Shown: positions 3,524 through 29,624 of the stretch, piece by piece
Layout: every line of letters starts with the position of its first letter
Position numbering within the stretch: the stretch's first letter is position 1
IMG/VR virus record: IMGVR_UViG_3300020185_000186
Coordinates: 1 to 29,624 of that record
Length of the DNA: 29,624 bases
DNA from: a virus
Direction: 5' to 3' (one strand)
Program-made: the position numbers and the translations under genes
Notes under the pieces: generated by a model
Databases searched by the model: none
Told to the model about the DNA's origin: nothing
Seen by the model: only the letters and a program-made list of their open reading frames with translations

Positions 3524-3524
3524 A

Positions 3525-5435
3525 ATGTCGATTAATATACAGGAAATACTCTATCCAAATGACAGCGACTCTGTAAAATGGGGAAAGGTTAATTATAACT
3601 TTGACCAGATATTAGCGTCTGGAGGAAAAGAAGGTCCAAAGGGAGAGAGAGGTGCGTCTGGTTTAACAGGTGCAGTAGGTCTTAAAGGTGAAAAAGGAGA
3701 CGAAGGTGCCCCTGGATCTAAAGGAGAAACTGGAACCTCAACTAACTTTTGGGATCAATTCCAAACAACGCTACAAGGCGCAGACGCTTGGATATTAAAG
3801 CCAAAGAACGAAGTCGTAGGAGGTAATAATAGATCGGAGCAAACTGCAATTATAATTGGAGACTCTTCATATAACTTTGGATCAGCAGATGGTGTTTTAG
3901 ACTCACCTGCACAGCTAACAGTATTTACTGATAGTGCTTTTTCATATGCACAAAAATGGGGACCTTCTACTGGAAATGACTTTTTAACTATTAGAGGAGA
4001 GGTAAATGGATTTGATACAACTCGTACAGATTGGAAAATTCAACCTGAAGGGATGTCAACAAACTCTAGTATTATTCTAAGTTCAGAGAATGTTGAGTTA
4101 ACTGGAGGTAGCATATTATTTAGTGGTACAGATACCTTTATTGGAGGCGGTGGAGAAACTAGTGTTACAAATGATGGAGTTGACATAGTATCTGGATATT
4201 TAAAAGTAGGAGGAGTCAGTACATTTTCTGATACTGTTTCTGTTAATTCTACTAAATTTTTAAAGATTCCCGTAGGAACAACAGTTCAAAGAGCAAGTAC
4301 AGCATTTACATCATCTAATGGGATGATTAGATATAATAGTACAACTGATAAATTTGAAGGTTATGTAGATGGTGGTTGGAGAGATTTTCAAAGACTTTCA
4401 GACTCCACTAGATTTACACACGTTTCAGTAGAAAGTGACAATAGATATGCTCTAAGTGAAGATAGTAAAATTAATTTAGTAGCCGGTCAAAATAAAATGG
4501 TCAGTGTTTCAAGTACTGAAGTAAAGATTAAAGATACTACAGGCACGGATATAATTAAGACAAGCAATACTGCTATTGACGTGTACCAAGATGTTAGAGT
4601 AGACAGCGGACACGATATTTATATTCTTGGGAATGATGAAGGGATAATTTATCCAGCAGGAGGTTTAAAAAGTTCTGGAACTCCTACCTTTGGAACTGCA
4701 TTATTTTCATCTCCTAGTTATAATAGTGCTGAATCACTTAGAAACTTAAATGACTATTTTTATCAAGCGTCATACTTTCCAGAGTCAATCAATCAATCTG
4801 GTGGTAATTGGAATGAAGGTACTTATTTTATTGGATTATACGGTACAAATGGCATATACTGGCAGCCGCCATCTGCCACGGTGAATCAGACCTCAACGAC
4901 TTATTACCAAAAATCTACTGAATCGAAAGTAACTTGGACTAAAATAGGAAACCAAGTAATGGTTAATGGCCATTATAAAATGGGTGGTTGGTCGAGTACC
5001 GACTGGAGAAGAGATACTATTGCTGGCTACGATAGTGTTCTTTTAGGGCTTGGAGAAATTACTGGAACAACGGGAACTAAATCGCAATTTCCATTTATAA
5101 ATCAGACAGGCCAACCTATACTTGTAAATGTAAAAATATACGGAGTTAATTACGATGACACTACTGATAACAGATACCTATCTAACTGTTTTGGTTTGAT
5201 TAAACCTAATGAAAGATACATAAAGCTATTCTACACTACCGATGCGAACGGTACTCATAATAGTTATATCGAGGCGGTTAAAGGCGTATATCTTAAGAGA
5301 ATTAGCGCTACTTTCGATGACACTGTAATCTTATTTAACTTTACAATGCCGACAATAGTTAACACTGGTAGAACCAGTTATTCAACCGGAGGCGGAGGAG
5401 CTCAAAATGGAAACAATCAATTTCAAGGAGCTTAA
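3525..5435 (+). CDS. Collagen-repeat tail fibre/structural protein
   Basis: This 636-aa protein has a short N-terminal region (residues 1-33), then 13 uninterrupted Gly-X-Y triplets (residues 34-72), then a long beta-rich part full of Ser, Thr, Gly and Asn. It ends in a Gly/Gln/Asn-rich tail. Collagen-like triplets are well known in phage tail fibres and appendages, where they form trimeric stalks; the rest would then form the shaft and tip. The ATG lies one base after the preceding stop, so the two genes are probably cotranscribed and translationally coupled. Residues 275-290 (NGMIRYNSTTDKFEGY) resemble repeats common in fibre proteins. Assignment as a fibre or adhesin is inference from composition and context; receptor specificity is unknown. 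Confidence 0.7.
   Translation: MSINIQEILYPNDSDSVKWGKVNYNFDQILASGGKEGPKGERGASGLTGAVGLKGEKGDEGAPGSKGETGTSTNFWDQFQTTLQGADAWILKPKNEVVGGNNRSEQTAIIIGDSSYNFGSADGVLDSPAQLTVFTDSAFSYAQKWGPSTGNDFLTIRGEVNGFDTTRTDWKIQPEGMSTNSSIILSSENVELTGGSILFSGTDTFIGGGGETSVTNDGVDIVSGYLKVGGVSTFSDTVSVNSTKFLKIPVGTTVQRASTAFTSSNGMIRYNSTTDKFEGYVDGGWRDFQRLSDSTRFTHVSVESDNRYALSEDSKINLVAGQNKMVSVSSTEVKIKDTTGTDIIKTSNTAIDVYQDVRVDSGHDIYILGNDEGIIYPAGGLKSSGTPTFGTALFSSPSYNSAESLRNLNDYFYQASYFPESINQSGGNWNEGTYFIGLYGTNGIYWQPPSATVNQTSTTYYQKSTESKVTWTKIGNQVMVNGHYKMGGWSSTDWRRDTIAGYDSVLLGLGEITGTTGTKSQFPFINQTGQPILVNVKIYGVNYDDTTDNRYLSNCFGLIKPNERYIKLFYTTDANGTHNSYIEAVKGVYLKRISATFDDTVILFNFTMPTIVNTGRTSYSTGGGGAQNGNNQFQGA
3624..3740 (+). repeat. Collagen-like Gly-X-Y repeat tract
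   Basis: Thirteen consecutive Gly-X-Y codon triplets (GKE, GPK, GER, GAS, GLT and so on through GTS) inside the fibre-like gene. The X and Y positions are rich in Lys and Glu and poor in Pro, as in bacterial and phage collagens that lack hydroxyproline and are stabilised by charge pairs. Confidence 0.9.
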
Positions 5436-5437
5436 GT

Positions 5438-6268
5438 ATGATTACTCTATTAAAAATATTAGACTTTGTTAAGTCAATTGATAAGAAAACGCTGGCGTTT
5501 ATCGGTGGTGCAATCCTTATGTTATTTATGCTGAAGCAGTGCAATACTATCTCGAACCTAAAGAGTGATCTTAAGATTCAAGAAGAGCTGACCGAAATCA
5601 ACTTTAATAATTATTTAGCATCCCATGATTCTGTTAAATATTTTGAAAACGAAATAGGAGATAAGGTAGCTCAAATTTCTAGCTTTCAATTTGAAGTATC
5701 TCAACTAGAGAGGACTAATATTGAAATAGAAAATAAATACATCAAGGCTCTAAATCTAAATAAGGACCTAGCTGGTGTTAATTCACTTCTTTCTGCCGAC
5801 ATTAGAATAAAGGACAGTTTACTTGCGATGTCAACCTTAACTGAAATAGATTCAGTTTCAAGCATGGTTAATTTTAATAAGGAGGATGACTTTGGATCTG
5901 GAAATACTAGAATTGTTAATGGGAATTTAATAATTAGATACGACTCTTCTGGTAGTTTTACAACCAGTCCTGTTAATTTGTCAATTGCTCAAACTCTATC
6001 ATTAAGTGCGGCCGTTGAAGAATTAGAAGGAAGAGAAACTCTAAAAATTACAAGTTCCTATCCTGGGTTAACAATTACTGGGATCGAGAACATAAGTTTA
6101 ATAGACCAAAGATTGAACGATAAAAACAAGATAAATAATAAGGCTGGATTTAGTATTGGTATGGGAATTGGATATGGTATTAATTACAATACGTCAAATT
6201 CTTCAATAACGCTTGGACCATCAATAAACGTTGGTCTATATTGGTCCCCTAAATGGTTAAGATTTTAA
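5438..6268 (+). CDS. Membrane-anchored coiled-coil protein with beta-rich C-terminus
   Basis: This 276-aa protein has one clear hydrophobic segment near the N-terminus (about residues 18-33). Next comes a long charged and heptad-like region (about 38-125) suggesting a coiled coil, then a linker, then a Gly-rich alternating hydrophobic C-terminus (about 235-276) ending in Phe. A terminal aromatic residue after amphipathic strands is typical of outer-membrane beta-barrel proteins. The order inner-membrane anchor, coiled coil, outer-membrane-like strands could span the envelope, as a spanin does, but no lipobox is present and I do not recognise the family. The ATG is two bases after the previous stop. 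A virion or lysis role is equally open. Confidence 0.65.
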   Translation: MITLLKILDFVKSIDKKTLAFIGGAILMLFMLKQCNTISNLKSDLKIQEELTEINFNNYLASHDSVKYFENEIGDKVAQISSFQFEVSQLERTNIEIENKYIKALNLNKDLAGVNSLLSADIRIKDSLLAMSTLTEIDSVSSMVNFNKEDDFGSGNTRIVNGNLIIRYDSSGSFTTSPVNLSIAQTLSLSAAVEELEGRETLKITSSYPGLTITGIENISLIDQRLNDKNKINNKAGFSIGMGIGYGINYNTSNSSITLGPSINVGLYWSPKWLRF

Positions 6269-8976: not shown

Positions 8977-9351
8977 ATGAGCAATACTATAAAAACATTT
9001 AACGAGTATCTAATCGAGCAAAAGGTAACTGATGCTGATCTTAAGATCCTAACAGAGGGACTCCAGCAAGAGTGGACCGATGAACTAGAAGAAAAGGTAG
9101 ATGCCGCTCTTGATCAATTTATACTAGAATACGCTGACGATCGAGGTGAGATTGATATTGATAAGTTTAATACTGAACTAACCAATGAGGGCATTTTAGG
9201 ATCTATTTTCGGTGGTTTAGCTGGATTTGCTCTTGGTAAAACAGTTGGTAAAACGATTGCAAAAGTACTTGGTATAGACAAAGGAGTTCTATACGACTTA
9301 TTAACATCAAGACTTGTAGGTGCCGCTTTGGGTGCATCGCTTGGTAAATAA
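8977..9351 (+). CDS. Tagged small protein with glycine-zipper C-terminus
   Basis: This 124-aa protein starts MSNTIKTFNEYLIE, the first occurrence of the short peptide shared by the 14505-23565 gene block and similar to T4 capsid-targeting sequences. An acidic helical region follows (to about residue 70). Then a Gly/Ala-rich hydrophobic segment (about 73-124) shows G-x3-G spacings such as GSIFGG, GFALGK and GAALGASLG. Such glycine zippers pack helices in membranes or membrane-active peptides. The sequences ILTEG (about residue 25) and NEGILG (about 70) resemble possible prohead-protease sites. An internal head protein released into the host envelope on infection is a plausible inference. I do not recognise a named family. 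Confidence 0.7.
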   Translation: MSNTIKTFNEYLIEQKVTDADLKILTEGLQQEWTDELEEKVDAALDQFILEYADDRGEIDIDKFNTELTNEGILGSIFGGLAGFALGKTVGKTIAKVLGIDKGVLYDLLTSRLVGAALGASLGK

Positions 9352-14504: not shown

Positions 14505-16541
14505 ATGGCTGGATTACATTCATTTGAAGAATTTACTAAATTAAAGGCTGAGTCTTTAGCCGCTGAAGAAGCAGCAAAAAGCGCAAGCGCTAGAGAAAAG
14601 ACAGCAGCGAGCTTTAAAGAACTATTGGCAGAGTATGGCGTAACAAGTCTTTCTGAATTAGACGAAGAACAAAGCACTGAATTCTTTACTAAACTAAAAG
14701 GTTCTAAAATAAACGAATCGACTACAATAATCGAAGAGGGCACTAGAGGTCAATTCGGTAAAATCGATAAGAATGGAAATATTACTTCGGTATATACGCA
14801 CTATGATTCATACCCAGAAAACATGCTACCTTTAATTAAGAAGGCATATAAAGGTGGTAAAAATGTAGATGCTGTTATTAAAGGTGGTGATAATTCAGGT
14901 TTAGAATCATCAGTTAATAAAATTAACTTCTATGGCGATGGTGCAACTCCAATGAAAGGATCCATCACAAATATATCCAAATATTTAAAAACAGCAGCCG
15001 ATGAAGGTGGTGCAGAATTTGTATATTTATGGGATGAAGGTAATAAAAAATGGTTAATGGCAGACATTTACGGTAATGGATTTGATGTAGAAGAACCAGC
15101 ATTTGAATCGTTTTTAATTAATGAAAACTACGAGGTTATCTATAGTGATGGCATAAGTGCAATGAAAAAGTTTAGAAGCGAAGGACAGGCTCTTGACTTC
15201 ATGAAGCAAACCATTGCTTCTAACAAGAAATTAAGAGACATCGCAGTTTACAAACCAGGCATGTATTCAACAACTCAAACTGAATTAGTTGTAGCTTTCT
15301 GGGGAAATGGTTCATATCTAGATAATGTTTCTAAAAGAGATCCTAAACTAGCTGCTAAGAAATTAGATGAATCATTAGTTACTGAAGCATCCGGTAATTT
15401 TCCAATTCAAGAGAGAAGAGTTGCTAAAAAAGTAGTAACACAATACAATCATATATTCGGTAAAAAATACACCTCACTTGTAGATGGTGGTAAAACACAA
15501 TTAGGAGCAATTAAGGTTATTTTTCAAGCGGCAATGGAAGACGCTAACTTTAGTAGAGAGGGAAATGAAATCATGAAAAATATCAAAGGAGCGCTGCAAA
15601 ATATAGTAGTTCCAGTTAGTGGACTTGGTAATATTGAAGCAAAGGTTTCAGCAAGAAGAATTCAAGATGCTCTATATGATGAAGCTAGTAGAATTTCAAA
15701 TGCGGCAGAATGGGGAGGTCTTGGAATCGTTGAAGGAACTGCACTCTATCTAGAATCAATTGGAAATGAGGCAATGGGTGCTCAACTAGTAACTGCATTC
15801 CACGCTCAATTCGAAAGCAGAGAAGTTATGGAGGCTAGAATACTTGAAGGTAATGAGTTCGGCGCAGCCAGAGCAAAAGCAATTGCCGATGGTAAAGATG
15901 AGTTTGAAGTTGATGGAGAAACTTATAAAGTCACTAAGGTTGACAAGGAAGACAAAGAAAATGCAGAAGAATTTGCTGGAGAATCAGCAGTTACTGAAGC
16001 TAAATTCGTAAAAGATTTTAACAGAGATGTTTTAAAGGCGAAAACAAAAGAAGAAGTTTTAGAGCTTTATCCAAACGCTCAATTCTTTATCGGTAAATCA
16101 GATCATTTCTTTGGAGAACTAGACGGTAACTTATTCTTTAAAGCATACTATACTAAAGCACAAAAAGAATTTGAAATCAAATCAGTTTATTCTGAAAAAG
16201 GAAGCAACTATGTTCATTTATACAATGAATCTGTAGTTACTGAAGCAGACGAACCAAAATGTTCTAATAAAAAAGGACACTTATATAAACAAGTTGATAA
16301 AGACGGAACTGTAGAATGCGTGCACTGTGGTCTAAGAAATTCATTAAGTGAATCAGTAATTACTGAAGCTGAAATTAAATCTGACGATGAATTTAAAGAA
16401 TATGCATTTACAGTTTTAAAGAAAGCTTTCGGAGAAGACTTTGACGAAGCAAAGGCACAAGAAGTGGTCGATGGTATTTTATCAAAAGCAGACGGCGATT
16501 ATGGAACTGCAGTTGGAATACTAACGAGTTCACTAGGATAA
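14505..16541 (+). CDS. Modular head-cargo polyprotein candidate
   Basis: This 678-aa protein reads as a string of small domains. Residues 1-16 (MAGLHSFEEFTKLKAE) form a divergent tag. Residues 34-69 are helical. About 78-200 is a domain with GQFGKIDKNG, SVYTHYDSYPE and KGGDNSGLE, resembling a phage domain I have seen with a YCHxDGYPE-type motif. About 207-287 is an alpha/beta domain. About 298-490 is helical with GNEFGAARAKAIADGKDEF. About 499-573 is another alpha/beta domain. About 584-612 is a zinc-ribbon-like module (Cys586, His592, Cys605, Cys608). About 625-678 is helical. The junctions carry DESLVTEA (288), GESAVTEA (492), NESVVTEA (574) and SESVITEA (615), similar to prohead-protease sites with hydrophobic-x-Glu. 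I infer a packaged, cleaved polyprotein; the function of each module is unknown. Confidence 0.75.
   Translation: MAGLHSFEEFTKLKAESLAAEEAAKSASAREKTAASFKELLAEYGVTSLSELDEEQSTEFFTKLKGSKINESTTIIEEGTRGQFGKIDKNGNITSVYTHYDSYPENMLPLIKKAYKGGKNVDAVIKGGDNSGLESSVNKINFYGDGATPMKGSITNISKYLKTAADEGGAEFVYLWDEGNKKWLMADIYGNGFDVEEPAFESFLINENYEVIYSDGISAMKKFRSEGQALDFMKQTIASNKKLRDIAVYKPGMYSTTQTELVVAFWGNGSYLDNVSKRDPKLAAKKLDESLVTEASGNFPIQERRVAKKVVTQYNHIFGKKYTSLVDGGKTQLGAIKVIFQAAMEDANFSREGNEIMKNIKGALQNIVVPVSGLGNIEAKVSARRIQDALYDEASRISNAAEWGGLGIVEGTALYLESIGNEAMGAQLVTAFHAQFESREVMEARILEGNEFGAARAKAIADGKDEFEVDGETYKVTKVDKEDKENAEEFAGESAVTEAKFVKDFNRDVLKAKTKEEVLELYPNAQFFIGKSDHFFGELDGNLFFKAYYTKAQKEFEIKSVYSEKGSNYVHLYNESVVTEADEPKCSNKKGHLYKQVDKDGTVECVHCGLRNSLSESVITEAEIKSDDEFKEYAFTVLKKAFGEDFDEAKAQEVVDGILSKADGDYGTAVGILTSSLG
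15366..16373 (+). repeat. Four ESxVTEA inter-domain linker repeats
   Basis: Four copies of an eight-residue linker, [DGNS]-E-S-x-[VI]-T-E-A, begin at about bases 15366, 15978, 16224 and 16347. Each falls between regions that look like separate domains. The V/I-T-E step before Ala is close to the [L/I]-x-E cleavage rule of the T4 prohead protease gp21. Confidence 0.7.
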
Positions 16542-16552
16542 AAATCTTAAAG

Positions 16553-17842
16553 ATGAAAAAACTATTTACATACGAACAATTTTTAACAGAAAGAGAGGTC
16601 AGGAATACTGACCTTGAATCTGTTTTTGAGGGAGGAGCATACGGTCACTTAACTCATCCATTTGAAGACCTAGGTCTTACAATGAGAGATGTAAAAGATA
16701 TGATAGACTCTACGGTTGAAGGTGCCTTTGGTCCTGAAAACTTTGTTCAAGAGAAAACAGATGGCCAACAACTTTCAATTTCATGGAAAGATGGCAAACT
16801 AATAGCAGCTAGAAACAAGAGCCACTTAAAGAATGCCGGAGCAGAAGCAATGTCAGCACAAGATCTTGCTCTTAAGTTTAAAGACAGAGGAGACATTGAA
16901 ATAGCATACAATGCTGCAATGAGAGACCTACAGTCTTCAATTGGATCGCTTTCACCAGCTCAACTTGAAAAGATGTTTGCAAATGGTAAGAAATTTGCAA
17001 GTATCGAGATCATGACGCCAGTTACACAGAATACTGTTCCATATGGTCAAGATCTAATAGTATTTCATGGTATTGTAGAATATGATGAAAATGGAAATAG
17101 TATTGACGAAGACAAACAAGCGGGTAGAGATCTTGCCAAGATGATTGCAGACGCAAATGCAGCATCACAAGAGATGTTTTATGTTCGTGGACCTCAAGAA
17201 ATACCTATTAAACCATTTAAGAACACAAAGGCAAGAGCTCAATATTATAATAAGAAACTAAGCGAAGTCATGAAAGATGCTGGAATCAACCTAGATTCAA
17301 CAGTACAGGACTTTGTACTTGGCAGAGCAAAGAACATTGTTAAGGGACTAGACGTAGATATTCCAGAGGGTTCAATTGAAGGAATTGCAATGAGACTTGG
17401 AGACATTAATAAATCATATAGCATTGCCAATATGAAAAAGGACATGGGTCCTGAATTAACGAAGGAATACAGTGATTTTGAGAAGAAAAACTCAAAGATG
17501 ATTAAAAAGCAAATTTACGCTCCTCTAGAGAATTTATTTCTTGAAGTTGGAACTGAGATGATGATGCACATGGAAGCATTTCTTTCTGCGAACCCAACTG
17601 CTGCTGGAGAACATATGCGCAAAGAAATTGAGGACACTATTAATAAAATTAGAAAGAACGGAGACGCTACTGATGTTGAAAAACTAGAACATGAACTAAG
17701 TAGAGTTGCTGCTGTCGGTGGATTAGATAATATAGTTCCAACTGAGGGAATTACTTTTGTTTATAAAGGTAAAGTATACAAGTACACTGGAATCTTTGCA
17801 CCAATTCATCAAATTAGAAGTATCTTAGCCTATAAAAAATAA
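16553..17842 (+). CDS. Tagged nucleic-acid ligase-like nucleotidyltransferase (KxDG family)
   Basis: This 429-aa protein begins with the tag MKKLFTYEQFLTE. After a conserved-looking N-terminal region (GGAYGHLTHPFEDLGLT, residues 27-43) comes motif I of the covalent nucleotidyltransferase superfamily, EKTDG with Lys68. Next are SWKDGKLIAARNKSHLKN (77-94), a motif III-like Glu152 in ASIEIM, a motif IV-like IEGIAMR (275-281), and a basic motif V-like SIANMKKDM. A second EGITFVYKGKVYKYTG (399-413) is followed by FAPIHQI. Such enzymes form a lysyl-AMP intermediate and seal nicks or cap RNA. Whether this one ligates DNA or RNA cannot be told. It belongs to a family common in marine T4-like phages, as far as I recall. 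The tag suggests packaging in the head. Confidence 0.75.
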   Translation: MKKLFTYEQFLTEREVRNTDLESVFEGGAYGHLTHPFEDLGLTMRDVKDMIDSTVEGAFGPENFVQEKTDGQQLSISWKDGKLIAARNKSHLKNAGAEAMSAQDLALKFKDRGDIEIAYNAAMRDLQSSIGSLSPAQLEKMFANGKKFASIEIMTPVTQNTVPYGQDLIVFHGIVEYDENGNSIDEDKQAGRDLAKMIADANAASQEMFYVRGPQEIPIKPFKNTKARAQYYNKKLSEVMKDAGINLDSTVQDFVLGRAKNIVKGLDVDIPEGSIEGIAMRLGDINKSYSIANMKKDMGPELTKEYSDFEKKNSKMIKKQIYAPLENLFLEVGTEMMMHMEAFLSANPTAAGEHMRKEIEDTINKIRKNGDATDVEKLEHELSRVAAVGGLDNIVPTEGITFVYKGKVYKYTGIFAPIHQIRSILAYKK

Positions 17843-17850
17843 AACCAGTA

Positions 17851-18447
17851 ATGAAACACGTAAAACTTTTTGAACAATTTATTAACGAGGCAGACATAAC
17901 TCAACCAATTGAAGGTACTGAAGTTGTTGTAATGCCTGGTAGATTTCAGCCGTTTCACAATGGTCATATTGCCGCACTTAAAAACGCTGCTAAAATGTTT
18001 GGTAAACCAGTAGTTGCAATGCAAATTGTTTCAAAGAAGGATGAGTCTCCATTTCCAGAGAATTTATTACTTCAAATTGGACAAGAAGTTGCAAAGAATG
18101 AGACTGAAATTGCGGACTTCTTTATTTACCCAAATAGTTACGGTAGAACAGTCATTCCATGGTTTGTTAGATTCTTAAGAGAACAAGGATATGAAACAGT
18201 TGGCGTAGGAGCTGGAAGTGATAGAATTAAAGCATACACTCCGCAAATCAAGTATATTACAAGCGAAAAGACAGATACTGTTGTTCATCCAGATTTTAAA
18301 TTAGAGATGGTAGATGCTAGAGCAGAAGGTGGTCCAAGTGGAACAAAAACTAGAGAGGCTCTTGCAAATGATGATAGAGAAGCATTCGAAAAGATGGTGC
18401 CGAAATATCTTTATAAATACTATGATAAATTAAGAAAGCATATATAA
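17851..18447 (+). CDS. Tagged NMN adenylyltransferase-like / cytidylyltransferase-fold protein
   Basis: This 198-aa protein starts MKHVKLFEQFINEA, the cleanest copy of the tag. The catalytic part begins at about residue 24 with VVVMPGRFQPFHNGH (25-39). This carries the GRFQPxHxGH signature of the HIGH-type nucleotidyltransferase fold seen in archaeal-type NMN adenylyltransferases and NadR. The second signature is SGTKTREAL (163-171), matching the ISSTxxR-type loop. The reaction would transfer AMP to NMN to give NAD+, or CMP to a phosphorylated acceptor; the substrate is not certain. Phages such as KVP40 carry NAD+ salvage genes, and NAD+ rebuilding counters NAD+-depleting defences. Delivery with the genome would put the enzyme in place before transcription. 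Its stop overlaps the next ATG (TAATG). Confidence 0.8.
   Translation: MKHVKLFEQFINEADITQPIEGTEVVVMPGRFQPFHNGHIAALKNAAKMFGKPVVAMQIVSKKDESPFPENLLLQIGQEVAKNETEIADFFIYPNSYGRTVIPWFVRFLREQGYETVGVGAGSDRIKAYTPQIKYITSEKTDTVVHPDFKLEMVDARAEGGPSGTKTREALANDDREAFEKMVPKYLYKYYDKLRKHI
18439..18447 (+). promoter_or_regulatory. CATATATAA, one-mismatch copy of the promoter-like motif
   Basis: Differs from GATATATAA only at the first base. It abuts the ATG at 18447 and overlaps the stop of the upstream gene, so as a promoter it could serve only genes further downstream. It is most likely the product of a His-Ile-stop ending. Confidence 0.12.
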
Positions 18448-19802
18448 TGAAGTACGTAAAATTATATGAAGATTTTATCGCTGAAGAAGAATTCTTCAAG
18501 GGCGGTGTTGCAAATGGAATGACACCTGAAGATCTTGCTAAAACGCATAAAGTTTCAGTCGATGTTATTAAAGCAGCTCTAGAAAAGGGTGTTAATGTTG
18601 AAGTAGAACATACTAACGACAAGGCAAAGGCATATGAAATAGCAAAGGATCATATTTTCGAGGATCCTAAATACTATGATAAACTTGCTAAGATTGAAGA
18701 GTTTGTAAATGAGAGCAGGATGCCAGAAAAATTCATTGGTAATGATGAGATAGTATATCTCAAGACCAAAGAGGACTCTAGAGGTGCCCACTACAATCTT
18801 TATTATAAAGGACATAATATTGAAACAGGAGGTGTACGATTCGGTAATGAAAAAGAATTAAAGTCTTTTGCTAATGATTATATTCTATCTAATCAATGGT
18901 ATAACAAATTAAGGTATGCGGACCCAAAACCGCTTCCAGAATCTTTTATAAGTGAGAGTGGTAATGCAATTGCGCAATCAAGACCGTTTGAGCAGCATGA
19001 GGTTGCTAAGACCCTAGAATGGATCGAGAAGAACGTTTTTCCTCACATTGGAATAGATGGACTTGGAGCAGACGCTGCAGTTATTGGAAGCGCTGGTAAA
19101 AAGAATCCAGGAGAAACAAGTGGAGATATTGATATTGCTGTTTCAGCAGATAAGATCGCAGGACACTTAGACACTTCACTGGCTAAAGTTCTTTTCGAAA
19201 TGAATGATTTATTGAAGTCAAAAGGAATGGACACCTCGATGGCTGTGGGATTCCAACAGGTATCAATCGCAGCTCCTATTGAAGGTAATCCAAAAAATGG
19301 AGTTGGACAGGTAGACTTAATGTTATCGAGAGATATTAATTGGAGCACATTTATGTACCATTCTCCGGATTTTACAAAGGACGAATCAAAATATAAAGGA
19401 GCATATAGAAATATTCTCTTAATGTCAGCAATTGGTAAATCGTTTGTTGAAATATTAGACCAAACTGACGAAGGAGAGACCAAAGAATATGAAGCATATG
19501 TTATTAGACTAAATCAAGGTGTTGTAAAGGTTCGTAAATCTTTTGTTGGAAAGAGAGGTCTAGTAAAGAACGCTAAGCTTCTTAAAGACTTTGATAAGGA
19601 AATAACTAACGTTCCAGAACAAATAGCAGATCTTCTTTTCACAGGAGCAAATGTTGGAGATTTGATGACATACGAAAGTTTAAGAGACTTAATCAATTCA
19701 GGACAGTTTAAGTTTCCTGAAAAGAGAAAGGAAATCTTTGAAGAATTTGAAGTTAAATTAGGAATGTCGGGTTTACCTTTACCGGAGGACATGACAAAAT
19801 AA
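18447..19802 (+). CDS. Tagged polymerase-beta-type nucleotidyltransferase with N-terminal DUF5661-like domain
   Basis: This 451-aa protein starts with the tag MKYVKLYEDFIAE. Residues about 18-88 resemble the small domain I know as DUF5661 (GMTPEDLAKTHKVSVDVI, then EHTNDKAKAYEIAKDHI, then DPKYYDKL). A short module (about 92-155) follows, and linker PESFISESG (164-172). The C-terminal part has the nucleotidyltransferase signature: GSAG (214-217), GDIDIAV with Asp227 and Asp229, and a third carboxylate in GQVDLML (Asp290). This arrangement matches minimal nucleotidyltransferases, polyA and CCA polymerases and related toxins or antitoxins. The linkers VNES (87-90) and ISES (168-171) resemble those in the polyprotein, so it may be cut into domains after packaging. 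Substrate unknown. Confidence 0.75.
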   Translation: MKYVKLYEDFIAEEEFFKGGVANGMTPEDLAKTHKVSVDVIKAALEKGVNVEVEHTNDKAKAYEIAKDHIFEDPKYYDKLAKIEEFVNESRMPEKFIGNDEIVYLKTKEDSRGAHYNLYYKGHNIETGGVRFGNEKELKSFANDYILSNQWYNKLRYADPKPLPESFISESGNAIAQSRPFEQHEVAKTLEWIEKNVFPHIGIDGLGADAAVIGSAGKKNPGETSGDIDIAVSADKIAGHLDTSLAKVLFEMNDLLKSKGMDTSMAVGFQQVSIAAPIEGNPKNGVGQVDLMLSRDINWSTFMYHSPDFTKDESKYKGAYRNILLMSAIGKSFVEILDQTDEGETKEYEAYVIRLNQGVVKVRKSFVGKRGLVKNAKLLKDFDKEITNVPEQIADLLFTGANVGDLMTYESLRDLINSGQFKFPEKRKEIFEEFEVKLGMSGLPLPEDMTK

Positions 19803-19810
19803 AATAAATT

Positions 19811-21073
19811 ATGGCACTACAAAGCTTACATACATATTTTGAATCTACGAACAGGGAAGAGTTTATAGAGATGTTAAAATTACCATGCGTTGTCACTGAA
19901 AAGGTACAAGCATCCTCATTTCATGTTAGAAATGATTCAAAAGGATATGAATATTTTAAAAGTGGTAAAAAGACACCTCTTGATAAAGTTGATAGAACAA
20001 TCGCAAAGTATTATGAGAACGCGATCAAATACTTCGAGTCAATAAGCGAGGAGGTTCGCAGTGAAATGCCAACAGATTGGAAGTTTGGATTTGATTATAT
20101 GACGGACAACCAAACAATAGACATTAAATACGATTCAATTCCTAAGAACGGTTTGATATTAACTCACATTCAAGTAATGAATCCATCTGATAAAACTTTA
20201 ATCAATAAGGTTATTAGAGACCCGAAGATACTTTTTGAATGGTCAGACAAATTAGAGGTACAGAGACCTCAAATTGTTTTTAAAGGAGTTTTAAGTTCAA
20301 ACCAAAAGGACGAATTAGTAAGACTATTAGAGATGAGTGGCGCTGAAAGAAAACAGGCATTTGAATCTCTTGGATTTACAAGAAGAGCATATAACATATT
20401 CAATGCTGAACTGAGCAAAACAGCTCTTAATGAAGACCTAGATGGAGAAATAGACTCTCTTGTTATTAATTTCTTTGATGGAAAAAATGTAAAGAACTTC
20501 AAGCTTAAAGGATCAGAAGATACAATTATTGAGAATCGAAAGTCTAGCGATACATATCAAATTGCACTTCTTGATCTAGTTGAGTTTTTTTCTGACTATA
20601 AAATAGACGACATTAAGTTAGAGTCTGAAGACGCCGACGAGAGATATATTGAATTAATATCAAATGCATTTAACGCATATATAGGTGAAAACGCATCTAA
20701 GTATGCTGGTGTTAATTTTGATTCAGCTGAATTTAGCGACAGACCTGAATTCCAACTCAATACTAAGTTTATAGTAAATGAAAAAACAATTGAGCTCGTA
20801 GACAACAAAACACTGGCTGAACTTTATAAAATTGCGCTAGGTTCTTTTAGAAAGAGAAGACTTAAAGAGACGGATATAATTAACGCAGATCTAATGAGTC
20901 AAATTAATGAGATTGTAGACAGGATAGATGGAATTGTAATGCTAAAGAGTAACGAATCAAACGTAATGCCATTCAAGACCTATCTAAATCATCAAAAATT
21001 AAAGTCTCAAATAAGTCCAATTGAAGAGTCGAGTTTATTAACTTATTCTCAGTTCTTAGAAAAAGATATATAA
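19811..21073 (+). CDS. Divergent ligase-like nucleotidyltransferase with C-terminal tag-like sequence
   Basis: In this 420-aa protein, residues 27-40 (VVTEKVQASSFHVR) look like motif I of the ligase superfamily with Lys31 kept but the usual Asp-Gly replaced by Gln-Ala. KFGFDYM (91-97) fits motif III, with Asp in place of Glu. GEIDSLVINF (212-221) fits motif IV, and NFKLKG (229-234) fits a motif V with two lysines. The pattern resembles RNA-ligase-like enzymes, but the altered motif I leaves activity uncertain. The N-terminus (MALQSLHTYFEST) is at best a weak tag, while the C-terminus LLTYSQFLEKDI (409-420) closely resembles the N-terminal tag of the 429-aa ligase-like protein (LFTYEQFLTE). 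The start is preceded by an A/T-rich leader nine bases after the previous stop. Confidence 0.6.
   Translation: MALQSLHTYFESTNREEFIEMLKLPCVVTEKVQASSFHVRNDSKGYEYFKSGKKTPLDKVDRTIAKYYENAIKYFESISEEVRSEMPTDWKFGFDYMTDNQTIDIKYDSIPKNGLILTHIQVMNPSDKTLINKVIRDPKILFEWSDKLEVQRPQIVFKGVLSSNQKDELVRLLEMSGAERKQAFESLGFTRRAYNIFNAELSKTALNEDLDGEIDSLVINFFDGKNVKNFKLKGSEDTIIENRKSSDTYQIALLDLVEFFSDYKIDDIKLESEDADERYIELISNAFNAYIGENASKYAGVNFDSAEFSDRPEFQLNTKFIVNEKTIELVDNKTLAELYKIALGSFRKRRLKETDIINADLMSQINEIVDRIDGIVMLKSNESNVMPFKTYLNHQKLKSQISPIEESSLLTYSQFLEKDI
21065..21073 (+). promoter_or_regulatory. GATATATAA promoter-like motif inside the cargo block
   Basis: Exact copy of the motif, 14 bases before the ATG at 21088. It overlaps the Asp-Ile-stop end of the preceding gene, so chance is possible. 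It has no TTGAAA upstream at the P1/P2 spacing. Confidence 0.25.
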
Positions 21074-21087
21074 AAAAAGAAATAAAC

Positions 21088-22668
21088 ATGATTTCATTTA
21101 ATAAATATATAGACAATGTTACTGAGGCAACTATTGAGATAGACGCAATGGACCCTAAAGATAAGAACTTCTTAAAATTCTTAAAGAAACATAATGTTGA
21201 GATTATCAACACACAAGATGCGTTTAACGGTTGGGAAATAACAATACAGGGTAAAAGAAAAGATCTTGAAGCTGTTCTTGCCGATGATGAATATGGTTGG
21301 GATGACCCAGACTTAGCAGAATACATTGAAGAGTCAGCAACTAATGAGTCCAAGATCGTGTTAAAGAGAAAATACACTGAAAATCATCCAGAGGTTACTG
21401 CTGGTAAAAATGCTAGAATAAGAAATAAAATGTTAGAGGCTATTGCTGATGGTAAAATCAGTCAAGAAGAGTTTAACAATATTCTAAAAGAATTTTCAAA
21501 AGACACTTCTAAATGGACTCGTAGAAATTCAAAATTCTTTAACGTTTCTGAAGAAGGAATATCACTATCTAAATTCGGTAAAAAAGCCCTAGCACAAATT
21601 ACAGTCAATGAAGAAACAAATAAAACAGAAAATAAAATGAAAAACAATTTCATATTCGAATCATTTAGTGAGTTCGTTAACACATTAAACGAAGAATCAA
21701 CAGAATCATTAAATGAGGCTTTTGCTTCACAAAAACTTGCAAGCCTTTTAACAGGTGGAGAGCATATGGATAAAGACCTTCCAAAGGCATTTTACCAAAT
21801 GTCAAAACTACAGCTTGATAAAATTCAAGACGTTGATATTATTGAAATGGATCCTAAAGAGGCAAAGAAGGAGAAGAGAGCTAACGCAGTTTACTTTTAC
21901 TTTACAACAAATGAAAAAGAGAATCCATATGCTGGAAAAAGCACATGGAGAGAAGAGAAACAAATTCCTGCAAATACACTATTAGCAATCACAAATGGTT
22001 CTAATGAATGGATGGCTACAGAATGGCAAAGAACATACAGTAGAAGTCAAAAATCAACCAAAACGCTAAAAGTTGGTAAACGCGAAGATGCTGCTGGATT
22101 TAAAAAATCTGGAAGAGGAGAATATAACAGTGGAATCTCAAGTATGAAACAAGTTTCTGAACTTGCAGATAGAGCATATGTATTAGACCTTGATATTCTT
22201 AAGGCAAGATATTCTTCTGCAGAACAAAGAGATGAGAGAGCTGCTGCTAAAAAAGGAGCTACAGCTTTTAAAAATGACAAGGACTTTAAAGCAGAAAACC
22301 TTGCAAGATACAATAATATTATAGCGGACAGAGCTGCATCTATGCCTATTGATAAAATGGTACAAGACTCTATTGATATAATGGCTAATCAAATTAAAGA
22401 TGCTATTGCTAGAGGAGAAAAAGGAAGATACGGAGATATTATTGTTGGAAAAACTGATAAAGGTAGAGAGGCTAAATTAAGCGATGCTTCTAATCATATG
22501 AGAGGAATTTTAGATGACTTCAATAGATATGTAAGCTATACTAATCAAGCTGAGGAAGAAAAGAAATCAGGTTACAGTGGAGACTACTATGCAAGAGAGG
22601 TTAAGAACTACGCAAAAACAATAACTGACAAGATAAAACAAATTGAAACATTTTCTTACGCTTGGTAA
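21088..22668 (+). CDS. Multi-domain head-cargo protein with internal second tag
   Basis: This 526-aa protein has a first tag-like start, MISFNKYIDNVTEA. Residues 20-80 form a small alpha/beta domain and a linker EESATNES follows (81-88). Next is a helical basic module (91-170; KYTENHPEVTAGKNARIRNK). At residue 184 comes a second full tag, MKNNFIFESFSEFVNTLNE, then EESTESLNEAF. The C-terminal part (about 212-526) is alpha/beta then mostly helical, with no motif I recognise. The codons before Met184 (TNKTENK) have the A-rich composition of the leaders in front of other genes here, so the ORF looks like two tagged genes fused in frame, or one with an internal start. All parts are hydrophilic without membrane segments. 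Confidence 0.7.
   Translation: MISFNKYIDNVTEATIEIDAMDPKDKNFLKFLKKHNVEIINTQDAFNGWEITIQGKRKDLEAVLADDEYGWDDPDLAEYIEESATNESKIVLKRKYTENHPEVTAGKNARIRNKMLEAIADGKISQEEFNNILKEFSKDTSKWTRRNSKFFNVSEEGISLSKFGKKALAQITVNEETNKTENKMKNNFIFESFSEFVNTLNEESTESLNEAFASQKLASLLTGGEHMDKDLPKAFYQMSKLQLDKIQDVDIIEMDPKEAKKEKRANAVYFYFTTNEKENPYAGKSTWREEKQIPANTLLAITNGSNEWMATEWQRTYSRSQKSTKTLKVGKREDAAGFKKSGRGEYNSGISSMKQVSELADRAYVLDLDILKARYSSAEQRDERAAAKKGATAFKNDKDFKAENLARYNNIIADRAASMPIDKMVQDSIDIMANQIKDAIARGEKGRYGDIIVGKTDKGREAKLSDASNHMRGILDDFNRYVSYTNQAEEEKKSGYSGDYYAREVKNYAKTITDKIKQIETFSYAW
21637..21693 (+). other. Internal capsid-targeting-like tag with leader-like codons before it
   Basis: An in-frame ATG at 21637 starts MKNNFIFESFSEFVNTLNE, similar to the N-terminal tags of neighbouring genes. 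The bases just before it (ACAAATAAAACAGAAAATAA, then A) carry out-of-frame stops and look like an intergenic leader that became coding. It may still serve as a translation start giving a 343-aa product. Confidence 0.55.
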
Positions 22669-22690
22669 AAAAATATATTAAAACAAAACG

Positions 22691-23194
22691 ATGAAACACA
22701 TTAAGCTATTTGAAGAATTTTCTTCAGAATTAAACGAAAAGGTAAACGCATCTGGTTACATTAAAGCTGGAAAATTAGGTTATAACGATCAATTCCTAGG
22801 AAGACAATCACTTTCTAAAACATTATCATTAGATTTAGGTTTTGATAAAAAGAACGAATTTGGTGGTGGAGATTGGATTGGATTCGACCACATATCAATG
22901 TACGCTTCTGGTAAAAAGGGTGGAACTATAATAGATGACGCTCTATCAGGAAAATATACATATGATGAGTTAAAGGCAGCAGCTGCTAAACACTTTGGTA
23001 TTAGCGAATCTGTAGTTAACGAATCAGAAGCTGAAAATATCTTACAAGATCTTTTAGATGAAAGAGGTGGAGACATGGGAGAATTACATGGAATGAACAT
23101 GGAAGATGCTCTAGATACAGTTGAAACATATGGACATAAAGGTTCTAAAGCAAAAAAGATTGCACAGGAATTACATTCTTTATGTAACGCTTAA
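22691..23194 (+). CDS. Tagged two-domain small protein
   Basis: This 167-aa protein begins with the tag MKHIKLFEEFSSELNE. Residues about 18-104 form a Gly-rich alpha/beta domain (GGGDWIGFDHISMYASGKKGG). The linker ISESVVNESEAE (104-115) repeats the ESVVTEA-type junction of the 678-aa protein. The last 52 residues are a helical domain (MNMEDALDTVETYGHKGSKAKKIAQEL in outline). Both domains could be released by hydrophobic-x-Glu cleavage at VNE and LNE. I do not recognise a function. It is followed two bases later by the next gene. Confidence 0.7.
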   Translation: MKHIKLFEEFSSELNEKVNASGYIKAGKLGYNDQFLGRQSLSKTLSLDLGFDKKNEFGGGDWIGFDHISMYASGKKGGTIIDDALSGKYTYDELKAAAAKHFGISESVVNESEAENILQDLLDERGGDMGELHGMNMEDALDTVETYGHKGSKAKKIAQELHSLCNA

Positions 23195-23196
23195 TT

Positions 23197-23565
23197 ATGC
23201 CAAGTACTTCTAAAGCACAACAAAGACTAATGGGAGCTGCATACTCGGTCAAGAAAGGAGACTCTAAAATCTCCGATATCGACCCAGAATACAGAGACAA
23301 GGTAAAAGACCTTGTCGATGGCATGACTCTTAAGCAGCTTAAAAAGTATGCAGCAACAAAACATGAAGGACTTCCAGAAGTTGCAGAAAATATCTCAATT
23401 GATAACATCGGAGGAATGGGACCAGTTAAATTACCAACCTCAACTGAATATGGCTCTGGTGATGTACCAGCAGGTCAAGGTGATGCAGAAGAAGAATATA
23501 AAAAGAAAAAGAGAAAAATGAAACACGTGAAGACGTTTGAATCATTTTTAGCAGACTCTAAGTAA
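23197..23565 (+). CDS. DUF3008-like protein ending in a tag sequence
   Basis: In this 122-aa protein, residues 1-55 (PSTSKAQQRLMGAAYSVKKG at the start, then KQLKKYAATKHEGLP) match the small phage family I remember as DUF3008, defined by SKAQQRxMG and by an FAxTKHxGLP-type ending. The middle is Gly/Pro-rich and probably disordered. The last 15 residues are MKHVKTFESFLADSK, an almost perfect tag at the C-terminus. It is preceded by EEEYKKKKRK, whose codons resemble an A-rich gene leader. This looks like a tag whose own gene has been deleted and which has fused to the upstream ORF, or a true C-terminal targeting sequence. It closes the cargo block, just before a terminator. Confidence 0.7.
   Translation: MPSTSKAQQRLMGAAYSVKKGDSKISDIDPEYRDKVKDLVDGMTLKQLKKYAATKHEGLPEVAENISIDNIGGMGPVKLPTSTEYGSGDVPAGQGDAEEEYKKKKRKMKHVKTFESFLADSK
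23518..23565 (+). other. Stand-alone tag remnant
   Basis: ATG at 23518 opens 15 codons (MKHVKTFESFLADSK) and then stops. Its first 11 bases (ATGAAACACGT) are identical to the start of the 198-aa adenylyltransferase-like gene at 17851. In frame it forms the C-terminus of the 122-aa protein. Confidence 0.6.
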
Positions 23566-23671: not shown

Positions 23672-24289
23672 ATGAAAGTAATATTCTTAGATAATGACGG
23701 CGTGATATGCCTCTCTAATAACTGGGGAAGTCGCTTTAAGAAACAGAAGGCATTCTTTACTGAAGATAATCCACGTAAGAGCTTTGCTGATAATGGACCA
23801 GTTGAAGTGCGCTTCGACAACTTTGACCAAAAGGCAATTAAGGTACTTAATAAGATCCTAGAACAAACAGGAGCTGAGATTGTAGTTAGCTCAGACTGGA
23901 GACTACATGCGAATTTAGAAGAGTTAGGAGACTACTATGAATCTAAAGGTATTATCAAACGACCGATTGGACTTACCGAAGTTTTTCATTTTACAAACTG
24001 GCTAGAAGAAGGGTTTGTCCCAGACGACGGTGATTTTCCTTGGAACCGACATGAAAGGCATGAACAGGAGAGATATTTTGAAATCAAACGATGGTTAAGA
24101 GATCACCCAGAGGTTACACATTGGGTTGCGGTTGATGACCTACACATGGGGGTTCATGTTAAAAACAGTTCTTATGGTGCGTTTGATCGTGAGGATTGGG
24201 GTCTTGAGAACTTTGTTTGGACTCCAAGAGATTGGGAAGGTATCAAACAGAGTGGAGTCAAAGACAAGATATTAAAGTTTTTAAAATAA
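23672..24289 (+). CDS. HAD-superfamily phosphatase-like protein
   Basis: This 205-aa protein has the HAD motif I at the N-terminus, VIFLDNDGVI (residues 3-12), with Asp7 as nucleophile and Asp9 as acid. Motif II is VVSSDWR (71-77) and motif IV is WVAVDDLHMG (151-160) with Asp155/Asp156. The layout resembles the HAD domain found in multi-domain nucleic-acid repair proteins. A 3'- or 5'-phosphatase acting on RNA or DNA ends is plausible, which would complement the ligase-like proteins upstream. It lacks the capsid tag and has its own promoter region after a terminator, so it is probably made in the infected cell. Substrate unproven. Confidence 0.75.
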   Translation: MKVIFLDNDGVICLSNNWGSRFKKQKAFFTEDNPRKSFADNGPVEVRFDNFDQKAIKVLNKILEQTGAEIVVSSDWRLHANLEELGDYYESKGIIKRPIGLTEVFHFTNWLEEGFVPDDGDFPWNRHERHEQERYFEIKRWLRDHPEVTHWVAVDDLHMGVHVKNSSYGAFDREDWGLENFVWTPRDWEGIKQSGVKDKILKFLK

Positions 24290-24353: not shown

Positions 24354-25754
24354 ATGCTATTAGATATTGAACAGAGAGACCAAGAGGTAATCGTCTCATA
24401 CTATAACAAAGAGGGAAAAGTCTCCTTTAAAAGATACCCAGTAAGTCAATTTGAAAACTGGGTAGTTACAGAGGAAAAAGATAAATGGAAAGACAATAAG
24501 TACACAAACTGGGACGGAAGACCAATTAAAAGACAAAGATCAAAATCTTTTAATAAGTTTTCATTAGTTTATTTTATGGACTCTCTTCCGGAAAGCGATC
24601 GACAAGAAATCTTCGAGTTTAACATGCCAAGAACATACTACGTCGATATTGAAACTGAAATAGTTGATGGTTTTCCAAAGCCAGAAGAGGCAAAGACTAG
24701 AATTTTATCGTTCTCTATCATTACTCCAGAGCGCAAGGCTATTGTTTTAGGTCTTGATGATTTATCTAGTGAACAAATAAAGAAGATTGAAGAGGACACT
24801 AATAAACACTTTAAGAACTATGACCAGGATTGGGAGTTCTCATATTATAAGTTTAAAGACGAATATAATATGCTCTACACATTCCTACATAAGTTTCTTC
24901 CGAAGTTTCCAATGATGACGGGCTGGAACTTTATTAACTATGACTGGCAGTATATTGTAAACCGATGTAAAAGACTTCAAATTGATTTAACAGAAATTGC
25001 GATCACTGGATCTCTTGATAAAAACGATAGTCGTCCACTTCATATGGGAATACTTGATTATATGCAATTGTATGATAAATATGATAGAAGTGTTAAGGTA
25101 AAAGAATCAAATAAACTTGATTTTGTTGCAGGCCAAGTTCTTGATGTTGCAAAGATCAAATACACTGGAGGTCTACAAGATCTCTATGAAAATGACTTTC
25201 AAAAGTACATTTATTATAACGTTGTCGATTCGATTCTTGTCTATTATATCGATCAAAAGTTAAAGTCAATGGAGGTACTTTTAACGCTTGCAACAATTAC
25301 CCAGATGCCTCTATATAAAGCAGCTTCTCCCGTTGCAGTTACTGAAGCATTAATGGCTCGTAAGATGGCTGAATCAAATCATAAAATTGGAGTTGATTAC
25401 AAACAAGAGGATAATAAAAAAGACGGCAAATACGCTGGAGCTTTTGTAAAACAACCAATCGTCGGTTACTATTCTGGTGTAAGTGCTTTTGACTTTGCGT
25501 CTCTATATCCATCAGTGATGAGACAATTTAATATCTCTCCAGATGCTTATATTGATTTGATACCTAAGAATCAAATAGAAGAACGTAGGAAGAATCCTGA
25601 TGAAATCGTTTGCGAGAATGGTGTAGTCTATTCAAAAGACGAATCAATCTTAAAAAGAATATTAGGTGACCTCTATAATCAACGTAAAGAATACAAGAAG
25701 ACATCGTATGAGTATTATGAAAAAGCACACGAACTTAAAAAAACTTTTAGATAG
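24354..25754 (+). CDS. 43: Family B DNA polymerase, N-terminal half only (gp43-like)
   Basis: The product is 466 aa against about 900 for T4 gp43. The exonuclease domain is intact: Exo I YVDIETE (Asp98, Glu100), Exo II GWNFINYD (Asp197), Exo III YNVVDSILV (Tyr288, Asp292). Polymerase motif A DFASLYPS (380-387) is present. The sequence continues through YNQRKEYKK, matching T4 around VFNQRKEHK, then stops at TAG. Motif B (KxxxNSxYG) and motif C (YxDTDS) are absent and not found downstream in this window in any frame. Split family-B polymerases with this kind of break are known in some Aeromonas T4-like phages (43A/43B). I infer that a second half is encoded elsewhere. A terminator follows, so the half-gene is a finished unit. 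Confidence 0.85.
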   Translation: MLLDIEQRDQEVIVSYYNKEGKVSFKRYPVSQFENWVVTEEKDKWKDNKYTNWDGRPIKRQRSKSFNKFSLVYFMDSLPESDRQEIFEFNMPRTYYVDIETEIVDGFPKPEEAKTRILSFSIITPERKAIVLGLDDLSSEQIKKIEEDTNKHFKNYDQDWEFSYYKFKDEYNMLYTFLHKFLPKFPMMTGWNFINYDWQYIVNRCKRLQIDLTEIAITGSLDKNDSRPLHMGILDYMQLYDKYDRSVKVKESNKLDFVAGQVLDVAKIKYTGGLQDLYENDFQKYIYYNVVDSILVYYIDQKLKSMEVLLTLATITQMPLYKAASPVAVTEALMARKMAESNHKIGVDYKQEDNKKDGKYAGAFVKQPIVGYYSGVSAFDFASLYPSVMRQFNISPDAYIDLIPKNQIEERRKNPDEIVCENGVVYSKDESILKRILGDLYNQRKEYKKTSYEYYEKAHELKKTFR

Positions 25755-29330: not shown

Positions 29331-29624
29331 ATGAAACACATTAAATTATTTGAACAGTTTATCAATGAATCTCAATTCGCCGATGACAGTACTTCTAGCC
29401 AAGATGCTAAGTTAAGGCTAAAAGAACGTAAAGAACTAACAAAAAAATTAATTAAGGCAACCGGGATTACAACATGGGAAGTATACTATGGCCATGGTTT
29501 TTTTATCATGAATACAAAGACTAAAGGAAATACCGGAACTGAAATATTTGGAATAAAAGATTTAGATTATAGTTTTACTTGGAGAATTCTTAACTCTGAC
29601 GATTATGAACCATTGGCACCAAAA
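29331..29624 (+). CDS. Tagged protein, 3' end cut by window edge
   Basis: The frame is open from ATG 29331 to the last base, 98 codons, so the gene continues beyond the window. It begins MKHIKLFEQFINES, differing from the 198-aa protein's tag at one position within the first 13 residues. A charged linker and helix (about 20-45; DAKLRLKERKELTKKLIK) follow, then a strand-rich part with WEVYYGHGFFIMNTKT. I recognise no family. It shows that tagged cargo genes are not limited to the 14505-23565 block and can form separate transcription units. Confidence 0.75.
   Translation, partial: MKHIKLFEQFINESQFADDSTSSQDAKLRLKERKELTKKLIKATGITTWEVYYGHGFFIMNTKTKGNTGTEIFGIKDLDYSFTWRILNSDDYEPLAPK

Follow-up and report, generated by a model that had tools for sequence, protein, structure and literature searches.

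What do otherwise unrelated phage proteins gain by carrying variants of one short peptide? The question is raised by IMG/VR virus record IMGVR_UViG_3300020185_000186, a 29,624-base fragment of a T4-like phage that was analysed over its whole length (the window). An initial annotation had pointed to such a peptide, or tag, at the N-termini of proteins in a gene block (14505–23565). Our analyses indicate that the tag is very likely a T4-type capsid-targeting propeptide, by which precursors, a kit of enzymes included, would be packaged into the head, cut by a gp21-type protease and delivered as cargo. The tag itself, its genome-wide spread, the conserved columns, the protease in relatives, the virion-like composition and the enzyme folds were established by computation. 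The window encodes gp32-like and UvsW-like proteins and a family B DNA polymerase, and tail and ribonucleotide reductase genes were recognised by inspection. The head module is absent from the 29.6-kb window; close relatives are much longer. Two relatives were fetched whole, G001 (166.6 kb, 85% identity over the protein encoded from position 16553) and G006 (254 kb, 62% identity over the same protein). The block had no megablast match among phage records. Window proteins are named below by the first position of their genes, and all features listed lie on the plus strand.

A shared peptide in unrelated proteins

A position-specific scoring matrix (PSSM) was trained solely on G001 genes that lie beyond the stretch of synteny with the window. 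The first 26 residues of the window proteins were then scored, with p values obtained by shuffling each protein. Seven window proteins scored at p ~0.001 or less, four of them at about 2e-5 to 4e-5. All the peptides listed in the initial annotation are present at the positions given there. Within the block, they are MKKLFTYEQFLTE of protein 16553 (16553..16591, p=1e-4), MKHVKLFEQFINE of protein 17851 (17851..17889, p=2e-5), MKYVKLYEDFIAE of protein 18447 (18447..18485, p=4e-5) and MKHIKLFEEFSSELNE of a 167-aa protein (22691..22738, p=2e-5). The two occurrences reported outside the block also stood: MSNTIKTFNEYLIE (8977..9018, p=1e-4) opens a 124-aa protein (8977–9351), 11 of whose 12 distinct relatives bear a strict tag, and MKHIKLFEQFINE (29331..29369, p=2e-5) opens a gene cut by the window end. 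Looser forms had been claimed for two modular proteins. One of them, MAGLHSFEEFTKLKAE of the 678-aa protein 14505 (gene 14505–16541, tag 14505..14552), was significant (p=1e-3), and its relatives conserve L-x-SF-x-x-F; the other, MISFNKYIDNVTE of the 526-aa protein 21088 (21088..21126), is weak in the window (p=0.27, not significant alone), yet 32 of its 67 distinct relatives carry a strict tag (MNFQDFLNEG, MKKFEEFIGE). No replication or nucleotide-metabolism gene of the window reached tag level, and neither did any tail gene (lowest p 0.04). The shared peptide is real and far above chance.

N-termini were also clustered by BLOSUM similarity without a motif prior, at a threshold taken from shuffles. 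The largest cluster comprised 23 genes in G001, 31 in G006 and 19 in the cultured phage PAU, whereas the same procedure in T4 gave pairs only (2), one of them IPII with IPIII. Interior stretches of the same proteins, clustered as a control, gave nothing above pairs. One large cluster in each of G001, G006 and PAU makes the tag a genome-wide feature that belongs to several related phages. The tagged set is unusually large, as had been proposed, and a motif search of whole genomes, which had been suggested as a check, returned many tagged genes but no tag on the recognised replication and tail genes that were tested. The tag is not confined to the block; the 23 G001 genes are distributed over several clusters.

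To examine conservation, orthologues of 16553 were gathered via the enzyme domain alone, which yielded 46 distinct N-termini. They share the pattern [FY]xxF[ILVM]xE, with the first aromatic, the Phe and the [LIVM] residue each present in 46/46 and the Glu in 44/46; the linker between tag and enzyme domain is variable. A strict tag was present in 43 of 64 distinct matches of 16553 against 2 of 1190 interior segments, and in none of the control families (uvsW, ssb, primase, polymerase and one tail gene). The aromatic/Phe motif emerged without a prior in both G001 and G006, with the terminal Glu in 29 of the 31 G006 tags. Synonymous codons vary among the G001 tags and the upstream DNA is unrelated, so the peptide is what selection keeps. 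In AlphaFold models, the N-terminal tag of 16553 lies in a disordered tail, as does the C-terminal tag of 19811 described below. No tags were seen in the Lak phage and megaphage LR756502/LR756504 regions.

Correspondence with T4 capsid targeting

Reviewed work on T4 IPIII assigns capsid targeting to residues 4 and 7 (Tyr and Phe), and processing to residues 8 and 10 (Ile and Glu) (PMC9026906). The conserved columns of the 16553 orthologues coincide with these four positions: aromatics stand at the places of Tyr4 and Phe7, and a hydrophobic-x-Glu cleavage site occupies positions 8–10. This agrees with the earlier observation that the tags end in hydrophobic-x-Glu at the same place as in T4. Likewise, the N-terminal capsid-targeting sequence (CTS) of T4 IPI, IPII and IPIII, MKTYQEFIAE, matches MKHVKLFEQFINE at the four key positions.

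A gp21-family prohead protease, for which a search had been recommended, was found in relatives together with gp23 and gp20 of the T4 type. In G001 and G006 alike, a Peptidase_S77 (gp21 family) protease and a gp23-family capsid protein exceed the Pfam cut-offs, and the G001 portal (gp20) matches Portal_T4 at 4e-68. PF03420 was above its cut-off in the relatives G001, G002, G003, G004, G006, G008 and G009. As the window is a fragment without the head module, the protease of this very phage rests on relatives. In G001 (L054:3482-5410) and G006 (101682-103583), the gp21-family protease makes up the front of a long protein; the remainder is heptad-rich, has repeated LAEA/IAES-like sites and looks like a scaffold, so that protease and scaffold seem to be combined in a single protein.

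Tagged genes also lie next to head genes. In G001, a tagged acidic protein (45462) is encoded between portal and protease, the position of T4 gp67/gp68; five tagged genes immediately precede the G006 portal; and a similar start, MKTFTCFINEA, is encoded between portal and protease in Chryseobacterium phage MA9V-1. In Sphingomonas (Sphingobacterium) phage PAU, 19 genes start with MKTLTQLYEAKLNEA-like peptides, similar in kind but different in consensus. Its depositors noted five genes as 'internal capsid protein' and one as 'scaffolding'; the tag is on four of these five and on the scaffold gp152 (hypergeometric p=6e-5). That the fifth of these genes and the vertex proteins of PAU bear no tag suggests that the depositors did not base their notes on it. 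By cryo-EM, there is strong density inside the PAU capsid (PMC5646251). A search of PAU with the cargo enzymes 16553 and 19811 gave no match.

The tagged PAU scaffold and the tagged G001 protein in the gp67/gp68 position would also fit a peptide whose role is limited to assembly, where it docks proteins with scaffold-like or chaperone functions to the prohead scaffold or protease, most of them then being degraded or leaving the prohead, as is largely the case for T4 gp22, gp67 and gp68, with no delivery to the host. We consider this unlikely, since a number of carriers have enzyme folds and conserved catalytic motifs but no obvious scaffolding role, and a cut at a single-site tag would leave the enzyme whole.

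Amino acid composition bears on the capsid-targeting reading as well. Cysteine makes up 0.43% of T4 virion proteins and 0.28% of its internal proteins, against 1.25% of its non-virion enzymes. In the window, the corresponding values are 0.16% for tagged, 0.07% for structural and 0.86% for replication/metabolism proteins (p=4e-5); proteins 16553, 17851 and 18447 (429, 198 and 451 aa) have no cysteine. Tagged proteins are depleted relative to the others in G001 (0.12% vs 0.84%, p=1e-10), G006 (0.29% vs 1.05%, p=4e-10) and PAU (0.40% vs 0.97%, p=6e-4). Because cysteine was not used in the tag search, this depletion is a separate line of evidence for a probable virion location of the tagged proteins. 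Of two untagged homologues, that of the 18447 nucleotidyltransferase in Lak has 5 cysteines in 325 aa, and that of 19811 in LR756502, which lacks the C-terminal tag, has 4 in 446 aa; these cases, two only, fit an association of the tag with cysteine loss.

Short amphipathic peptides are common localisation signals, and some tags lack the terminal Glu. The peptide might accordingly recruit proteins to a membrane, the replication compartment or a host protein, with its likeness to the T4 CTS arising by convergence of amphipathic helices. Such a role is quite improbable: a docking helix needs neither the conserved Glu nor the aliphatic residue before it, and both the virion-like cysteine depletion and the overlap with the PAU internal capsid annotation argue against it.

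C-terminal tags, putative polyproteins and predicted enzyme cargo

The tag is also found at C-termini. Protein 19811 carries SPIEE/SSLLTYSQFLEKDI, with a cleavage-like Glu ahead of the tag (21014..21070), and ends in LLTYSQFLEKDI. C-terminal [TS][FY]xx[FY] is present in 47 of 52 orthologues, and [ILVTAM]xE lies within 14 residues before the tag in 41 of 43 distinct orthologues, compared with 36% of control segments. The C-terminal arrangement mirrors the N-terminal one. Precedent for C-terminal processing is provided by T4 Alt, whose N- and C-terminal propeptides are both cut by gp21 (PMC9026906). The DUF3008 protein at 23197–23565 has a C-terminal tag, MKHVKTFESFLADSK (23518..23562; E=0.06 in a scan of all interior positions), which recurs at the same place in L093 and megaphage LR756500.

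Tag-like sites inside three of the window proteins suggest that modules are joined as polyproteins. Protein 14505 has internal cleavage-like junctions over 14697..16367, namely KGSKINE/S (14697–14717), FESFLINE (15102–15125), DESLVTE/A (15366–15386), GESAVTE/A (15978–15998), NESVVTE/A (16224–16244) and SESVITE/A (16347–16367). The pattern [ILV][NT]E[ASG] occurs 12 times in the tagged set of the window, compared with 1.3 times in shuffles and twice in untagged proteins. In protein 18447, tag-like junctions over 18693..18956, IEEFVNE/S (18693–18713) and PESFISE/S (18936–18956), separate a DUF5661 module (E=2e-11), a second module and a module with a Pol-beta-like nucleotidyltransferase (NTase) motif; in G001, the NTase module stands alone, directly after the tag (MRYVKLFEQFIGESGNAIAQ). 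Protein 21088 contains an internal full tag, FESFSEFVNTLNE, and an STESLNE/A junction (21655..21717), a region in which its relatives differ by cassette insertion. The 22691 module is free-standing with its own tag in one genome and embedded, even in tandem, in the 21088-type protein of another; a 1170-aa version has ESKIYTEFSQFMNE and ETMIYTNFQQFVNE inside.

Several tag carriers had been thought to be enzymes, and this is supported by folds and motifs. The cargo part of 16553 (16592..17842) is an RNA-ligase-fold covalent nucleotidyltransferase with motif I EKTDGQ (16745–16771), which is invariant among orthologues; a second [LIF]-x-E/GG site lies ahead of the domain (16613–16636). In its AlphaFold model (pLDDT, the model's per-residue confidence score, 79), residues 1–29 are disordered and the fold includes a helical insert; the closest folds are RNA ligases (Naegleria RNA ligase, Z 9.6; T4 Rnl1, Z 8.9). 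Protein 19811 (19811..21013) is a T4 Rnl2-like RNA ligase with one cysteine; its motif I, TEKVQASS (19889–19921), has EK and QASS invariant, and its model compares to T4 Rnl2 with a Foldseek E=5e-6 and Z 12.2 over 191 residues. Searching solved structures by sequence profile returned nothing credible for 16553 or 19811, so the folds come from structural comparison only. Judged from these models (pLDDT 75–79), both proteins would belong to the RNA ligase superfamily, as they combine a nucleotidyltransferase fold with the motif I lysine. Protein 17851 (17890..18447) is a HIGH-superfamily NTase with GRFQPFHNGH at 17938–17967 (Pfam CTP_transf_like, E=7e-8; PHROG cytidyltransferase, 2e-11). The Pol-beta-like NTase motif of 18447, GSAGKKNPGETSGDIDIAV (GS...DID, 19086–19142), was recognised by inspection.

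In the marine T4-like contigs L013-L032, the HIGH-NTase and the 16553-type ligase are fused in cysteine-free proteins of 667–757 aa, encoded upstream of portal and protease and near the terminase; [LI][NT]E/GG is conserved where the two parts meet. Microcystis phage Mel-JY01 has a HIGH-NTase/RNA-ligase-like fusion too, under the name 'cytidylyltransferase like protein'. Orthologues of 19811 of ~613 aa (L100, L104, L107 and others) have the Rnl2-like ligase fused to a HIGH-NTase domain; both ligase types have thus been joined to a HIGH-NTase in different lineages.

Pfam searches of 40 tagged G001 and G006 proteins found few confident families (P-loop/zeta-toxin-like kinase, HD, RimK-like ATP-grasp, PAP2, KTSC and DUF5824), which indicates no single common function. 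Further tagged cargo includes an HD-domain protein and a zeta-toxin-like P-loop kinase in G001 (144897-145772 and 125095-126063), and a RimK-like ATP-grasp protein with a zinc-protease-like part and a PAP2 phosphatase in G006 (109121-110626 and 223447-224112).

The same kinds of enzyme stand side by side in the RNA repair sets of jumbo phages (RNA ligases, the RlaP Pol-beta NTase and HIGH NTases), which are proposed to mend RNA damaged by the host (PMC7824862). A further likeness is an untagged protein directly after the block (23672–24289), which matches PF18143, the HAD domain of Swiss Army Knife RNA repair proteins. In contrast to the jumbo-phage sets, for which the available part of the source describes no packaging (PMC7824862), the enzymes here carry a head-targeting signal.

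Proposed delivery and its alternatives

By the defining features that can be tested in sequence, the system would work like the T4 CTS system. It is best filed as a large expansion of it, new in scale, enzyme cargo, C-terminal form and polyproteins: T4 has about four carriers against 20–30 here, and the present carriers include RNA-ligase-fold and nucleotidyltransferase enzymes, full C-terminal tags and modular cargo polyproteins, and each lineage has its own consensus. The phiKZ-like Salmonella phage SPN3US (protease gp245) similarly has dozens of in-head proteins with propeptides removed by a prohead protease; its propeptides are, however, mostly 111–254 residues long, 42 of its head proteins are uncut, and the portion of that work consulted reports no short tag shared among them (PMC10052503). 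A literature search, made without most subscription journals, found no paper describing this tagged-cargo system.

From the above we infer packaging, cleavage, ejection and a counter-defence role. Late in infection, tagged precursors would bind the prohead core through the two aromatics of [FY]xxF. The gp21-family protease would then cut after the Glu of [ILV]-x-E and release the mature protein within the head before DNA entry, and the cargo would exit together with the DNA when the next cell is infected. The signal would be carried by roughly 20–30 genes, at either protein end, with several modules joined as polyproteins with cuttable junctions. The enzyme cargo would plausibly form an RNA-repair or nucleotide-handling kit active before phage gene expression; carriage in the head, we infer, would let repair start immediately.

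Several observations weigh against this proposal. In PAU, 14 of the 19 tagged genes are annotated as neither internal capsid protein nor scaffold, the tag is missing from gp70 (annotated as an internal protein) and from the two internal vertex proteins, and the record gives no basis for its internal-capsid annotation. Virion proteomics for this clade was not found in the literature. Some tags end in Asp, Asn or Lys, the orthologues compared are phylogenetically non-independent, and no late-promoter motif common to structural and tagged genes was resolved in G001. Internal cleavage-like sites are not enriched across the N-tagged proteins of G001 and G006 (p=0.3 and 0.8) but concentrate in a few families, so the case for polyproteins is the one made by the families of 14505, 18447 and 21088. 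In the marine relative G008, 14 carriers of MIKLKDILxE are not cysteine-poor (0.90%), which means that the generalisation fails there or that the set is mixed. This peptide, a different common N-terminus, opens a run of G008 genes (L074-L082, e.g. 103-6148); because of its cysteine content, the set is treated as no more than a candidate for a further lineage.

That the common start is a functionless relic of duplication or recombination copying gene 5' ends, as the clustering of tagged genes (12 adjacent pairs in G001 vs 2.5 expected) and four adjacent G006 genes with MKNYINTFEGFLNE-type starts might suggest, is hardly credible, given that neither codons nor upstream DNA are common to the G001 tagged genes, that orthologues at 35–60% enzyme identity keep the tag and not the adjoining linker, and that the tag also occurs at C-termini and inside proteins. 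Recent duplication as the source was rejected on the codon variation.

The initial proposal of head-packaged proteins, a capsid-targeting reading, is therefore well supported by sequence, if indirectly, and the cargo is probably delivered to the host together with the DNA. A wider view can be put forward tentatively, as possible rather than probable: a general protein-delivery system in which tens of interchangeable modules, polyproteins and C-terminally tagged forms among them, would be injected along with the genome and would include a ready-made RNA-repair/nucleotide kit that would undo tRNA-cutting or nucleotide-depleting host defences ahead of all phage gene expression. What in T4 is an obscure feature of four proteins thereby comes to look like a widespread delivery system. 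It offers a sequence rule for predicting phage proteins that enter the host with the DNA, makes dozens of uncharacterised phage genes testable as first-wave effectors, hints at the timing of RNA-repair enzymes relative to host defences, and supplies natural head-loading signals at either protein end and between modules.

Beyond the block, the family B DNA polymerase frame of the window (24354–25754) ends at 466 aa, in the palm region, as does that of G001; the polymerase seems to be split in both.

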